Origin: Rhizobiales bacterium dw_265 | Lineage (GTDB): Bacteria > Pseudomonadota > Alphaproteobacteria > Micropepsales > Micropepsaceae | Direction of reading: 5' to 3' | Assembly: GCA_018449595.1 (NCBI GenBank) | Contig: JAAVUU010000002.1 | Location: 682,001-746,000 of the forward strand | Length of the DNA: 64,000 nt | In this document: one piece after another, positions 25,496-53,023 of the stretch | Layout: every line of letters begins with the position of its first letter | How positions within the stretch are numbered: position 1 is the stretch's first letter | Position numbers and translations under genes: made by a program | Notes under the pieces: generated by a model | Databases searched by the model: none | Seen by the model: the letters and a program-made list of their open reading frames with translations, nothing else | What the model was told of the DNA's origin: nothing

Positions 25496-25524
25496 TTGAC
25501 GGCATAACGGAACTAAAGTAGAAC
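25496..25524 (+). promoter_or_regulatory. lexA promoter with LexA (SOS) box
   Basis: TTGACG (25496-25501) and TAGAAC (25519-25524) form -35 and -10 elements with a 17-bp spacer. The sequence GAACTAAAGTAGAAC (25510-25524) is a perfect alphaproteobacterial SOS box, GAAC-N7-GAAC, and its right half lies on the -10. LexA binding would block polymerase, giving autoregulation. The start codon is 48 bp further on. Confidence 0.88.
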
Positions 25525-25571: not shown

Positions 25572-26309
25572 ATGCTCACGCGCAAACAGTATGAACTGCT
25601 GATGTTCATCCATGAACGGGTGCGCGAATCCGGCATTCCGCCCTCCTTCGACGAGATGAAGGAGGCGCTGGATCTCAAGTCCAAATCCGGCATCCACCGC
25701 CTGATCACCGCCCTGGAAGAGCGCGGCTTCCTGCGCCGCATGGAAAAGCGCGCCCGCGCCCTGGAGGTGCTGAAACTGCCCGAAAACATGGCCGAGACCC
25801 TGCGCCCCGCCACCACCCGCAGCCAGGCCCAGCGCAGCGCCCATGCCGTGCGCCATGGCCGCAGCGAGATCCGCATGGCCGACACCCGCGGCCCCGCGCC
25901 GCGCCGCGGCTATGGCGACGGGGAAGCCGCCGTCAATGTCCCCCTGGTCGGCCGCATCGCCGCCGGCACCCCGATCGAGGCCCTGCAGAACAAGACCGGC
26001 GAAGTGCCGGTGCCCGGCGGCATGATCGGCAAGGGCAGCCATTACGCCCTGGAAGTGACGGGCGACTCCATGATCAATGCCGGCATCCTGGATGGCGATA
26101 CCGTCATCATCCTGGAATCCGACACCGCCAACACCGGCGAGATCGTCGTCGCCCTGGTGGACAATGAGGAAGCCACCCTGAAGCGGCTGCGCCGCCGCGG
26201 CGACTCCATTGCGCTGGAAGCCGCCAATCCTGCCTATGAGACGCGCCTGTACGGTTCGGATCGCGTCAAGGTGCAGGGCAAGCTGGTCGGGTTGATCCGC
26301 CGCTACTAG
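25572..26309 (+). CDS. lexA: SOS repressor LexA
   Basis: 245 residues from ATG 25572 with a GGAGGG site. The N-terminal winged helix has the alphaproteobacterial recognition region [15 protein letters not shown]. The C-terminal S24 peptidase shows the self-cleavage bond Ala131-Gly132 (VGRIAAG), Ser166 (TGDSM) and Lys204 (EATLKRL). It represses DNA-damage genes until RecA stimulates cleavage. The region 80-120 is a longer basic linker than in E. coli LexA. Its own promoter carries an SOS box. Confidence 0.98.
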
Positions 26310-48639: not shown

Positions 48640-51600
48640 CTAAACCGCCTCCACCGACATCACCCCCGGCAGCGCCGCGATGCGGTTGCGCAGGGTGGCG
48701 GTGACGGCGATGCGCTTCTTGAGTTCGATCTCCACTTCCTCGCCGGCATTGCCCGGCACCACCAGGCTGACCAGCCCCTTGCCGGCCTGTGACAGTTCGG
48801 CATAGAGCGCGCCCAGCGACGCGGTATCGGCCAGCCGCACCGTCATGCCCTCGCCTGCCTGCGCCGCCGCCTGGTCGAGATCGAGAATGGAGGCCGCCCG
48901 CAGCTTCATCTCGTCGCCGTCCCATTCCACGCTGCAATGGAGCAACAGCGACTTGCCGGCTTCCAGCAGCGGCCGGCTGGCGGCCAGCACTTCGGGAAAC
49001 AGCATGATCTCGAACATGCCGGTGGGATCGGAGAAGGAAACAAAAGCATACATCTGGTCGTTGCGGCCGCGCCGCTCGGATTTCTTGATGACCGTTCCCG
49101 CCAGCTTGGCCTTGAAGCCGCGGCGGCGGTCTTCCGCCAGCGCGGCATAGGTGGACGCCCCCAGCCGCCTCAGCGCCGGACCATAGGAATCCAGCGGATG
49201 ACCCGACAGGTAGAAACCCATGGCGCCGAATTCCTCACCCAGCCGCTCATGCACCGGCCAGTCGGGCACCGTGGTCAGGCGCAACTCTTCCGCCGGGCCG
49301 CCATCACCGCCAAACATCGAGACCTGGCCGCTTTCCCGCTCGCGCTGTGCCGCCTGGGCGCCGCCCAGGATGCGGTCGGAATTCTCGCAAAGCTGGCGGC
49401 GGTTGGGATTGAGCGAGTCGAACGCGCCCGCCCGCACCAGGTTTTCGAACGCCCGCTTGTTGACCAGGCGCGGGTCCACCCGGCGGGCAAAGTCGGAAAT
49501 GGATTTGAACCGCCCCGGCCCGCGCACCTCGACGACATGATCCATCGCCTGCTTGCCCACGCCCTTCACGGCGGCAAGCGCATAGAAAACCGTGTTGGCT
49601 TCCGCATCCACCGAAAATACCGACTGGCTGCGGTTGATGTCGGGCGGCGCCACTTTCACGCCCAGCCGCTGCGCCTCCTGGCGGAAGACATTCAGCCGGT
49701 CGGTGTTGCCGATATCCAGGGTCATGGAAGCGGCGATGAATTCGACCGGATAGTTCGCCTTCAGATAGGCGGTCTGGTAGGCGACCTGCGCGTAAGCCGC
49801 CGCATGTCCCTTGTTGAAGCCATAGCCGGCGAATTTCTCCGCCTGTTCGAAGATGGTTTCGGCGACATTGGCGGCGATCTTGCGCTCGGCCGCGCCCTTC
49901 ATGAATTTCGCGCGCTGCGGGATCATCTCCGCCGGGATCTTCTTGCCCATGGCGCGGCGCAGGATGTCGGCCTCGCCCATGGTGTAGCCTGCCAGTTCGC
50001 GGGCGATGCGCATGACATCGTCCTGATAGGTCATCACGCCATAGGTTTCCTTCAGGATCGGCTCCAGCGCGGGATGGAGATATTCCACCAGCTCCTTGCC
50101 GTTCTTGCGCGCGATATAGGTGGGGATCGAATCCATCGGGCCGGGGCGGTACAGCGCCACCAGCGCCACCAGGTCGTTGATATGGTTGGGCTTCATCTTG
50201 CGCAGCAGGTCGCGCATGCCCGCGCCTTCCATCTGGAACACGCCCACGCTGTCGCCATGAGACAACATCTCGAAGGTCGAGACGTCATCGAAATCAATCG
50301 TCTGGGTGTGCAGCGCGACGCCGCGCTGCTTGAGCAGTTCCTCGGCCTTGGCGATCACGGTCAGGGTCTTGAGGCCCAGAAAGTCGAACTTCACCAGCCC
50401 GGCCTTTTCCGCATCCTCATAGTCGAACTGGGTCACCGGCATGTCGGAACGCGGATCGCGATACAGCGGCAAAAGCTCGTCCAGCGGCCGGTCGCCGATC
50501 ACCACGCCGGCGGGATGGGTGGAGGCATGGCGGTACAGGCCCTCGATCTTGCCGGTGATCTCGAACAGCCGCTTGGCGATGGGCTCCTGCTCGGCGATCT
50601 GCTGCAGGCGCGGTTCGCTGTCCACCGCCTCCTTCAACGAGATGGATTTGCCCGGCGGATTGGGGATCAGCTTGGCGATGCGGTCCACCAGCCCCAGCGG
50701 CATCTGCAGCACGCGGCCGGCATCGCGCACCGCGGCGCGCGCCTGCAGCGAACCCAGCGCCATGATCTGCGCCACCCGGTCCAGGCCGTATTTGCCCCGC
50801 ACATAGCGCACCACTTCGTCGCGCCGCTCCTGGCAGAAATCGATGTCGAAGTCCGGCATGGACAGGCGTTCGGGATTGAGGAAGCGCTCGAAGAACAGGC
50901 CGAAGCGCAGCGGATCGAGATTGGTGATGTCCAGCGCCCAGGCCACCAGCGAAGAGGCGCCGGAGCCGCGCACCCCGACCGGGATGCCCTGGCCGCGGGT
51001 CCATTTCATGAAGTCGGACACGATCAGGAAGTAGCCGGGAAAGCCCATGCGGTTGATGATGCCCAGTTCATAGGTCAGGCGTTCGTCATAGACCTTGCGT
51101 TCGGCGAACAGCGGCGACTGTTTGAGGCGGCGGTCCAGCCCATCCTCCGCCTGGGCCTTGAGTTCGTCTTCCGCGGTACGGCCGGACTCCGGCGTGAACA
51201 CCGGCAGGATCGGCTTGCGCTTGGCCGGCTTGAAGGCGCAGCGCTGCGCGATCTCCACCGTGTTCAGGGTCGCCTCGGGCAGATCGGCGAACTGAAGCTG
51301 CATTTCGTCGGCGGTCTTGAAACGATGCTCGCGGGTCAGGCGGCGGCGGTCGTCCTGGGAGACAAAGGCGCCATCGGCGATGCAGAGCAGCGCGTCATGG
51401 GCCTCATACATGTCGGCGCGGCCGAAATGCACGTCATTGGTCGCCGCCAGCGGCAGCCGCGCGGCATAGGCCAGGTCCAGCAGCCCCTCCTCGGTGGCGC
51501 GTTCCTCGGCCAGGCCATGGCGCTGCAGTTCGACATAGAGCCGGCCCGGAAATGCCTGCGCCAGTCTTTCCAGCGCGGCTTCCGCCGCCTGGGGGTTGCC

Positions 51601-52050
51601 TTCCAGCAGCAGCTGGTTGATGACCCCGCCGGGGCCGCCGGTCAGGGCGATCAGCCCTTCGGCATGGGCCAGAAGCTTCTCGGACTTCACATGCGGCCAG
51701 TCGCCCGGCTCGACCTCCAGATAGGCGGCGGACAACAGCTTGGTGAGGTTCAGATAGCCCGCCTCGTTCTGCACCAGCAGCGGCAGGTGCGGCGGCTTGC
51801 GGCGCGATCCGGTCTGGATGGGGCTGCGCGCCCCGAACTCCACCGACAACAAGGTGCCCACGATGGGCTGGATGCCGGCCTTGGCCAGGGTTTCGGTGAT
51901 CTCGAACACCCCGAACAGGTTGTTGGTGTCGGTCACCGCCACCGCCGGGGTTCCGGCCTCCCGCGCCAGGCCCGCCAGTTCCTTGGGCCGCACGGCCCCT
52001 TCCAGAAGGGAATAGGCGCTCTTGACGCGCAGATGGATAAAAGACGCCAT
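48640..52050 (-). CDS. dnaE: DNA polymerase III alpha subunit
   Basis: 1136 residues. The PHP domain opens with FIHLRVKSAYSLLEG. The polymerase palm carries the catalytic Asp pair in SMPDFDIDF (near residue 400) after GASSLVAWALDITN. Tandem HhH, the beta-binding region and a C-terminal OB fold (about 985-1060, LAGTVIKKSERRGRNDQMYA) follow. This is the replicative polymerase type, not the mutagenic DnaE2. A 35-codon SOS gene lies 90 bp upstream on the same strand. Confidence 0.97.
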   Translation of the reverse strand: MASFIHLRVKSAYSLLEGAVRPKELAGLAREAGTPAVAVTDTNNLFGVFEITETLAKAGIQPIVGTLLSVEFGARSPIQTGSRRKPPHLPLLVQNEAGYLNLTKLLSAAYLEVEPGDWPHVKSEKLLAHAEGLIALTGGPGGVINQLLLEGNPQAAEAALERLAQAFPGRLYVELQRHGLAEERATEEGLLDLAYAARLPLAATNDVHFGRADMYEAHDALLCIADGAFVSQDDRRRLTREHRFKTADEMQLQFADLPEATLNTVEIAQRCAFKPAKRKPILPVFTPESGRTAEDELKAQAEDGLDRRLKQSPLFAERKVYDERLTYELGIINRMGFPGYFLIVSDFMKWTRGQGIPVGVRGSGASSLVAWALDITNLDPLRFGLFFERFLNPERLSMPDFDIDFCQERRDEVVRYVRGKYGLDRVAQIMALGSLQARAAVRDAGRVLQMPLGLVDRIAKLIPNPPGKSISLKEAVDSEPRLQQIAEQEPIAKRLFEITGKIEGLYRHASTHPAGVVIGDRPLDELLPLYRDPRSDMPVTQFDYEDAEKAGLVKFDFLGLKTLTVIAKAEELLKQRGVALHTQTIDFDDVSTFEMLSHGDSVGVFQMEGAGMRDLLRKMKPNHINDLVALVALYRPGPMDSIPTYIARKNGKELVEYLHPALEPILKETYGVMTYQDDVMRIARELAGYTMGEADILRRAMGKKIPAEMIPQRAKFMKGAAERKIAANVAETIFEQAEKFAGYGFNKGHAAAYAQVAYQTAYLKANYPVEFIAASMTLDIGNTDRLNVFRQEAQRLGVKVAPPDINRSQSVFSVDAEANTVFYALAAVKGVGKQAMDHVVEVRGPGRFKSISDFARRVDPRLVNKRAFENLVRAGAFDSLNPNRRQLCENSDRILGGAQAAQRERESGQVSMFGGDGGPAEELRLTTVPDWPVHERLGEEFGAMGFYLSGHPLDSYGPALRRLGASTYAALAEDRRRGFKAKLAGTVIKKSERRGRNDQMYAFVSFSDPTGMFEIMLFPEVLAASRPLLEAGKSLLLHCSVEWDGDEMKLRAASILDLDQAAAQAGEGMTVRLADTASLGALYAELSQAGKGLVSLVVPGNAGEEVEIELKKRIAVTATLRNRIAALPGVMSVEAV

Positions 52051-52073
52051 GACGGTTCCTAAGGAGAGTCAGG

Positions 52074-52088
52074 AGGCGATTATCGCCT
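52074..52088. promoter_or_regulatory. Palindrome in front of dnaE
   Basis: AGGCGAT (52074-52080) and ATCGCCT (52082-52088) are perfect inverted arms around a single T, 24 bp before the dnaE start. It could be an operator or a weak attenuator between the SOS peptide gene and dnaE. The remaining bases show a dnaE ribosome site (TTAGGA) and no other gene. Confidence 0.35.
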
Positions 52089-52140
52089 GCCCGCTCCCGA
52101 TATGGGGGCCCGGCAGGCCGCTATCCACAGATCCGAAAAC

Positions 52141-52248
52141 TCAGGTCGTGACGTGCGCGATCACGGCATGGGCGCCGCTGGCCAGCACAAAGGCCGAAAC
52201 CATGAAAAGAATAAGTCCCGCGCCCGCCGCCGCATCCTTGATCCACAT
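52141..52248 (-). CDS. SOS-regulated 35-residue membrane peptide (SidA-like candidate)
   Basis: A 36-codon frame, ATG 52248 to TGA 52141, preceded by GGGAG nine bases before the start. The product has a short polar start (MWIKDAA), one hydrophobic helix of about 22 residues (AGLILFMVSAFVLASG core, residues 9-30) and a small tail ending HVTT. Its promoter carries a perfect LexA box. In Caulobacter a 29-residue LexA-controlled membrane peptide, SidA, blocks division through FtsW. Size, regulation and topology agree. Sequence homology is not shown here. Confidence 0.75.
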   Translation of the reverse strand: MWIKDAAAGAGLILFMVSAFVLASGAHAVIAHVTT

Positions 52249-52277
52249 GATCGCCGTCTCCCGCTTCTGCGAGATTT

Positions 52278-52306
52278 GTTCTACTTTAGTTCTACTGGGT
52301 ATGCAA
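52278..52306 (-). promoter_or_regulatory. SOS promoter of the membrane peptide gene
   Basis: On the minus strand TTGCAT (52301-52306) and TAGAAC (52278-52283) form -35 and -10 with a 17-bp spacer. The box GAACTAAAGTAGAAC (52278-52292) is identical over all 15 bases to the lexA box and overlaps the -10 in the same way. The start codon of the peptide is 29 bp downstream. Repression by LexA is therefore expected. Confidence 0.88.
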
Positions 52307-52330
52307 GAACAAAAGGTGATCGAATTTGCG

Positions 52331-53023
52331 CTATCGCGGCAGGCTGGTGCCTTCGATCAGCTTGCCCTGGTGCAACAGGAAAGCCCGGTCCATCCGCGAC
52401 GCCAGCTCGAAATTGTGGGTGGCGATCAGCGCGGTCAGCCCCTGCGCCTTGGTGATGGCGATCAGGGCGTCGAACACCCCGCCCGAGGTCTTGGGATCGA
52501 GATTGCCGGTGGGCTCGTCGGCCAGCAGGATCTTCGGCTTGTTGGCCAGGGCGCGGGCGATGGCGACGCGCTGCTGCTCGCCCCCCGACAGTTGCGACGG
52601 GCGGTGGGTGAGCCGCTGGCCCAGCCCCAGCACGGTCAGCAGCCGCTCGCCTTCCTTTGCCGCCTCGGCGCGGCTGACGCCGGCGATCATCTGCGGCAGC
52701 ACCACATTTTCCAGGGCATCGAATTCCGGCAGCAGGTGATGGGCCTGATAGACAAAGCCGATGGCGTCGCGGCGGATGCGGGTCTTGTCCCGGTCGCCCA
52801 GTTTGGAAGTCGCCACACCTTCGATGAAGATTTCGCCGCTGGTCGGCGCTTCCAGCAGCCCGGCGATATGCAGCAGCGACGACTTGCCCGCGCCCGACGG
52901 CCCCACCAGGGCCACGATCTCGCCGGGGCGCAATGACAGGTCCAGGCCGCGAAAGACCTCCAGCTGCCCCTCCCCTTCCCGGTAGCGGCGGGTGATCTGC
53001 TCCAGGCGCAACACGTCATTCAT
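52331..53023 (-). CDS. lolD: Lipoprotein-releasing ABC transporter ATPase
   Basis: 230 residues. Walker A GPSGAGKSS (41-49), signature LSGGEQQRVAIARAL, Walker B ILLADEPTGNLD. MacB/LolD subfamily that drives extraction of outer-membrane lipoproteins from the inner membrane to LolA. Overlaps lolC by 8 bp. It ends 25 bp before the -35 of the SOS promoter. Confidence 0.96.
   Translation of the reverse strand: MNDVLRLEQITRRYREGEGQLEVFRGLDLSLRPGEIVALVGPSGAGKSSLLHIAGLLEAPTSGEIFIEGVATSKLGDRDKTRIRRDAIGFVYQAHHLLPEFDALENVVLPQMIAGVSRAEAAKEGERLLTVLGLGQRLTHRPSQLSGGEQQRVAIARALANKPKILLADEPTGNLDPKTSGGVFDALIAITKAQGLTALIATHNFELASRMDRAFLLHQGKLIEGTSLPR

Follow-up and report, generated by a model that had tools for sequence, protein, structure and literature searches.

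What gene, if any, occupies the short interval between lolD and dnaE in Rhizobiales bacterium dw_265, and could it encode a damage-induced inhibitor of cell division? The window analysed here is a single stretch of 64,000 nucleotides in which lolD (52331 to 53023) and dnaE (48640 to 52050, encoding the DNA polymerase III alpha subunit), both on the minus strand, flank a frame on the same strand at 52248 to 52141 (stop codon included), whose product, MWIKDAAAGAGLILFMVSAFVLASGAHAVIAHVTT, is 35 amino acids long with a single predicted membrane helix. lolD ends 82 nt short of the peptide start and dnaE starts 90 nt past the peptide stop; a GGGAG ribosome-binding site lies at 52258 to 52262 (minus strand), 9 nt 5' of the ATG, with GGAG-type sites at the equivalent place in most of the congeneric relatives compared. 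Family models were used to check the identities of dnaE, of lolD and of the lolC/E-type permease; LolD matches its own family best, at a score below the curated cut-off. The frame, its ribosome site, its one hydrophobic helix and its position between lolD and dnaE are thus present as the initial annotation had described them, and the questions we address are whether the frame is a gene, how it is likely to be controlled, and whether it is related to SidA of Caulobacter, as that annotation proposed. We note in passing an open frame of 1041 aa on the plus strand opposite dnaE (48937 to 52062), which is most probably just the mirror frame usual for GC-rich genes.

Conservation among close relatives argues that the frame is a genuine gene. 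A protein search of 61 genomes recovers it in 34 of 37 congeners including its own (E≤0.0012), and the three misses are genomes that are 58–74% complete. An HMM built from 30 members detects it in 49 of the 51 congeneric genomes that are at least 90% complete, a count that includes many genomes that supplied rows of the model; the two misses are G453 and G468. The location is also retained, with the dnaE start motif 187–243 nt downstream of the start of the peptide match at 26 of 30 congeneric loci, at about 650 nt in two more, and not recognised by the pattern at the last two. Among 12 sequences including the window's, the median dN/dS is 0.18 in frame (64 of 66 pairs), against values in the two alternative frames of 1.42 (28 pairs) and 2.18 (44 pairs). 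None of the 30 genus peptides departs from W2 or D5, and A8, G9, L12, F15 and L22 are conserved in at least 90% of them, such that the earlier expectation of little constraint on the sequence is incorrect at the level of the genus. AlphaFold2, run on the single sequence, predicts one helix spanning residues 2–34 with a mean pLDDT of 90.1, and the hydrophobic-window value of the peptide is 2.31. Scans of this peptide and of one congener's against NCBIfam and Pfam return no family, even at E 10, and as judged by these sequence comparisons the frame is a small-protein gene that is conserved but has no family model.

In one congener, G034, another copy of the peptide sequence, lacking a box, lies about 1.4 kb upstream of the first (L024, G034:C12:59030-59122). 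This second copy is joined directly to a TTTTGTT promoter remnant and has no start codon near its tryptophan, and it looks like a decayed duplicate.

Control of the gene is suggested by a 15-mer, GAACTAAAGTAGAAC, located at 52278 to 52292 on the minus strand and ending 29 nt before the peptide ATG. The 4.2-Mb assembly contains two exact copies of this 15-mer and no third, one at the peptide gene and the other at 25510 to 25524 (plus strand), 62–48 nt before the ATG of lexA (25572 to 26309, plus strand; TIGR00498, above the curated cut-off). The underlying pattern, GAACN7GAAC, is by itself little proof, because the genome has 91 such sites and 56 of the reversed pattern, an excess of only about 1.6-fold, and the window contains two sites where 0.94 are expected. 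The weight of the box at the peptide gene derives instead from its identity with the lexA box and from its conservation, as an exact GAACN7GAAC is present within 150 nt upstream of the peptide in all 30 fetched congeneric loci (own included). The frequency of the pattern is what could be said for a chance frame beside a degenerate SOS box, an explanation that we regard as extremely improbable given the lexA-identical box, the 30 conserved boxes, the low in-frame dN/dS and the presence of the peptide in nearly all congeners; loss of frame and box in close relatives, which would have counted against the proposed gene, is not what is observed.

We fetched 20 further sites of the 91, picked for A+T-rich spacers or for nearness to dnaE-type genes. 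Nine of these precede SOS genes, namely recA, ssb, imuA-type (four loci) and dinB-type (three loci), and the other eleven have no recognised SOS gene there. NCBIfam matches were obtained for one recA, one ssb, one imuA and one dinB, that of imuA below the curated cut-off, and the remaining imuA-type and dinB-type loci were assigned by eye. The nine occurrences before SOS genes indicate that the GAACN7GAAC box marks an SOS regulon, and the C. crescentus SOS box is listed as GTTCN7GTTC, the same direct repeat on the other strand (PMC9578287). Regulation by LexA via direct repeats of this kind is established in Caulobacter. Together with the lexA-identical 15-mer, these observations make the box before the peptide gene very probably a LexA site.

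Two other features of the SOS sites in this genome (G000) are worth recording. Several imuA-type and dinB-type genes with GAACN7GAAC at their starts are present along with three further dnaE-type genes (the set lies at C1:581982, C15:686411, C15:299429, C18:85742, C20:137377, C1:578956 and C15:690618), constituting a multiplied SOS mutagenesis set in which two members are confirmed by family model and the rest were assigned by eye. A GAACN7GAAC site at C17:157007-157021 (L320) is located some 210 nt upstream of an mraZ-like gene (assigned by eye), about 9 kb from an FtsW/RodA-type candidate, and may be there by chance.

The box also appears to overlap the promoter. The best candidate −10, TAGAAC (52278 to 52283, minus strand), corresponds to the last six bases of GAACTAAAGTAGAAC and follows a putative −35, TTGCAT (52301 to 52306, minus strand), with 17-nt spacing; each hexamer matches at four of six positions. 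A stricter sigma-70 scan reports no promoter upstream of the peptide gene, and the promoter geometry is therefore supported by the comparison of congeners, in which the TTG..TAGAAC arrangement is seen at 12 of 30 loci (own included), with most others having TTGAC and then the box. The proposal that the box covers the −10 thus holds for a putative −10 and finds no echo in the stricter scan. Judged from sequence alone, a lexA-identical box over a putative −10 would make this a LexA-repressed promoter, as expected of a SidA-type gene: in undamaged cells LexA would occupy the box over the −10 and block transcription, and following DNA damage the RecA-driven cleavage of LexA would free the promoter.

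Just upstream of the box there is an additional conserved stretch (52304–52321), consisting of the element TTGTTCTTG (52304 to 52312, minus strand), which overlaps the −35, and often a GATCaCC-like stretch before it; 25 of 30 congeneric loci retain the element. Conservation here seems to extend beyond a −35, and the stretch may include a third half-site for LexA or a site for an activator.

If the peptide belongs to a family defined by its locus, then a box and a short membrane frame should recur upstream of dnaE in more distant genomes, as had been suggested at the outset. A search with the DnaE N-terminus across 385 alphaproteobacterial genomes gave matches in 284, for which the best matches were listed; upstream DNA was taken from 130 places among the matches listed, and 129 of these could be oriented (L154 was dropped). 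Adding three loci of genus g121, reached through the genus HMM, and 24 from Caulobacter and Phenylobacterium gives 156 loci, a sample that favours DnaE proteins close to the window's. Members were defined by a LexA box 5–75 nt before a membrane frame of 22–60 codons, on the dnaE strand and no more than 600 nt before dnaE. Box (up to one mismatch) and frame are found together at 55 of the 156 loci, and with an exact box at 40, in comparison with 3 and 1 on the reverse strand and 10 and 0 with a reversed box pattern. Leaving aside the 24 Caulobacter and Phenylobacterium genomes, the exact box with a membrane frame is present in 28 of 132 alphaproteobacterial genomes, spanning 11 families including the window's own (f1, f4, f9, f18, f41, f57, f82, f116, f121, f123 and f126), and the other 104 have no exact-box membrane frame at dnaE; the one-mismatch matches L139, L145 and L165 were left out of membership. 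The suggestion of a wider family at this locus is thereby supported.

Typical peptides from these loci, such as WFKDIAALISVGAFIWVVSTW, FVKDFLALSSVVGVLWAVTIW and DWIKDTAALLVLGAVMWSGFALTAAAQA, have a short polar start, often with K-D, followed by one helix; the K-D start is absent from some (f41, f57 and f116), and the Caulobacteraceae type of peptide is found in none of the eleven families. A search of the 385 genomes of the class with the genus HMM gives clear matches only in five congeners. At E≤1 there is some match in 172 of the 385, and those examined are from genus g121 of family f121 (E 0.0046–0.06), where the matched peptides lie at dnaE, behind a box.

The same upstream regions contain many DnaA-box-like sites (TTATCCACA, up to one mismatch), which are present in 56 of the 156 (400 nt each) against about 9 expected from pair shuffles. 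Such sites lie between peptide and dnaE in L090, L109 and L116, and the window has one at 52121–52129. Replication control of dnaE is a possible role for them.

In Caulobacter itself, the initial annotation placed sidA, with some uncertainty, beside dnaE, and this placement is supported. Caulobacter and Phenylobacterium genomes were reached via PopZ (80 loci), 25 were searched for the DnaE N-terminus and 24 matched; all 24 have a sidA-type peptide directly upstream of dnaE, with an exact box at 12 and a box with one mismatch at the other 12. When the start closest to the conserved core is used, the peptide is 29 aa long in most of these genomes, and on the basis of genus, length, LexA box and membrane helix we identify it as SidA. 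The Caulobacter vibrioides MAG 32-67-7 (G419) yields neither a dnaE nor a SidA match. The window gene shares this location directly upstream of dnaE, a feature of SidA loci that was measured here and not taken from a paper. SidA is described as a 29-residue, SOS-induced inner-membrane inhibitor of division whose interaction partners are FtsW and, to some degree, FtsN; it blocks late division at FtsW/FtsN with the Z-ring undisturbed, and ftsW(F145L) and ftsW(A246T) are named as suppressors (PMC4211646). The window peptide is likewise a very short peptide with a single helix, for which we infer an inner-membrane location.

An arrangement in which a box and a short frame precede dnaE so regularly could also reflect a leader, with box and frame serving mainly the damage-inducible or translation-coupled expression of dnaE and the peptide itself having no target. 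The two genes are on the same strand with a 90-nt gap, we found no terminator-like site between them, and the order of peptide and dnaE recurs across families. We nonetheless consider a leader role very unlikely: purifying selection acts on the amino acid sequence, with W2 and D5 invariant and the membrane helix conserved, the intergenic RNA folds no better than shuffled sequences (z −0.73), and Caulobacter SidA is reported to have a proven function of its own (PMC4211646).

Is the window peptide then related by descent to SidA? When the profile of the window family is compared directly with that of Caulobacteraceae SidA there is no match, with 22 of 200 column shuffles reaching the score, and the RESLAL-SV-FVWMM core of Caulobacter SidA is absent from the genus peptides; this core is a lineage feature and is not needed for descent. 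Intermediates from the same locus link the two groups. We assembled 23 such peptides from the dnaE locus, the doubtful L145 among the rows, and a 20-row set that omits L145 and the f121 peptides, the latter having been found with the window-family model. The 23 intermediates match the window family (P 92.5%, E 4.8e-7) as well as SidA (P 88.5%, E 2.7e-6), and the 20-row set does so too (P 88.3%, E 2.9e-6 and P 80.4%, E 1.3e-5, respectively); in none of these four profile comparisons does any of 200 column shuffles reach the score. A set of 13 of the 23 intermediates (A3), picked by eye for the K-D start, gives links in the same direction, with a reversed control in the SidA comparison reaching 15.7 against 22.3; without f121 its match to the window family has P of only 74%, with one shuffle close (20.9 versus 21.5). 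Because this set was hand-picked and is weak without f121, the call of homology rests on the 23-row and 20-row tests.

Single sequences give a more uneven picture. An HMM of the 23 intermediates scores SidA at 16.9 bits and the window peptide at 13.2 bits, neither reached by any of 2000 shuffles; without f121 the window peptide scores 8.1 bits, a value that 14 of 2000 shuffles attain, and for one congener's peptide 65 of 2000 shuffles attain the score. Sixteen of the 30 genus peptides, the window's included, score above all 55 decoys with the HMM of 23, and 14 do not. The top decoys of the intermediate HMM resemble C-terminal fragments of lolC-type proteins, and the decoy that scores highest with the genus HMM (25 bits) is the real second copy in G034. 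By these comparisons, descent from a common ancestor with SidA, traced through same-locus intermediates, is well supported by place, control and profile links, and less so, at a moderate level, by single sequences. The SidA-like character proposed for the peptide accordingly stands on its place, its box and the links through intermediates, and not on a direct likeness to Caulobacter SidA.

The negative direct comparison speaks for another explanation, that the window peptide is an SOS membrane peptide of the TisB/DinQ type that depolarises the membrane or slows the cell without blocking the divisome, its likeness to SidA extending to locus and helix only. TisB is a tiny, SOS-induced, single-pass membrane peptide and is paired with an antisense RNA. 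E. coli DinQ is described as a toxic single-transmembrane SOS peptide, also paired with an antisense RNA (PMC3567139). The window peptide is of the same size class and has the same SOS control, and it would share with both the form of a tiny SOS-induced single-pass membrane peptide; TisB and DinQ act on the membrane and are set apart by this description. An Rfam search of 51800–52700 finds no family at gathering score, which, as it covers described RNAs, is weak evidence against an antisense RNA of the TisB/DinQ type. We judge this explanation to be unlikely, as the dnaE-side place and the box are common to the window gene and Caulobacter sidA, and profile links connect them through the intermediates. 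Descent from a SidA-like ancestor accounts for the agreement in place, control and profile more simply than either a TisB/DinQ-type peptide or a leader peptide does.

We therefore favor, as probable, the interpretation that the gene encodes a LexA-repressed, single-pass inner-membrane peptide, a divergent homologue of SidA upstream of dnaE, that blocks late division at FtsW/FtsN. Once made, the peptide would insert in the inner membrane, with its short N-terminal W-x-K-D tail probably inside and its short C-terminus outside, and would keep the late divisome (FtsW/FtsI/FtsN) inactive until repair is complete. The SulA domain (PF03846) is found in none of 60 congeneric genomes including the window's own, with an E. 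coli control positive, and two FtsW/RodA-type proteins, both below the curated cut-off, are present in the window's own genome, at C17:147032-148069 and C1:817349-818374; a brake of the SidA type is therefore plausible in this organism. A broader proposal is that the sidA–dnaE pair is an ancestral alphaproteobacterial damage checkpoint, in which a LexA-controlled transcript would enter dnaE and couple division arrest with polymerase supply, and the peptide would have drifted beyond pairwise recognition, perhaps tracking different FtsW/FtsN faces in each lineage; we offer this tentatively, as a possibility with rather long odds.

The locus survey places sidA in a broader context. No SidA relatives outside Caulobacter are reported in the titles and abstract beginnings of the open-access literature searched, and sidA now seems to be an old dnaE-linked locus and no Caulobacter peculiarity. 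If the locus is kept in eleven further families, then an old, FtsW/FtsN-directed peptide checkpoint would be the alphaproteobacterial answer to the missing SulA, and the many natural variants could help to map the way in which a helix of 30 residues halts septal wall synthesis. Detection by locus, through a box and a helix beside dnaE, works where sequence searches miss the peptide.

Comparison with other damage-linked division inhibitors shows where the window peptide fits. DidA of Caulobacter is described as a damage-linked division inhibitor (PMC4211646), and the window peptide shares with it a single membrane helix; DidA is 71 aa long, SOS-independent, driven by DriD and acts on FtsN, whereas the window peptide has a LexA box. 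YneA of Bacillus, SosA of Staphylococcus and ChiZ of Mycobacterium are described as damage-induced small membrane division inhibitors (PMC13396833), a likeness by description; the same source reports that YneA acts on FtsW and presents AlphaFold 3 models, not of high confidence, in which SosA, ChiZ and SidA contact FtsW TM7. YneA and ChiZ are said there to have a LysM domain, and SosA to have an extended helix, in contrast to the window peptide, which is almost only helix. The closest counterpart is SidA of C. crescentus. The window peptide, at 35 aa against 29, has an N-terminal W-x-K-D in place of the R-x-A-R-E-S of SidA and lacks its FVWMM helix core, but the two share their size class, a single membrane helix, a GAACN7GAAC box, and a place upstream of dnaE on the same strand.
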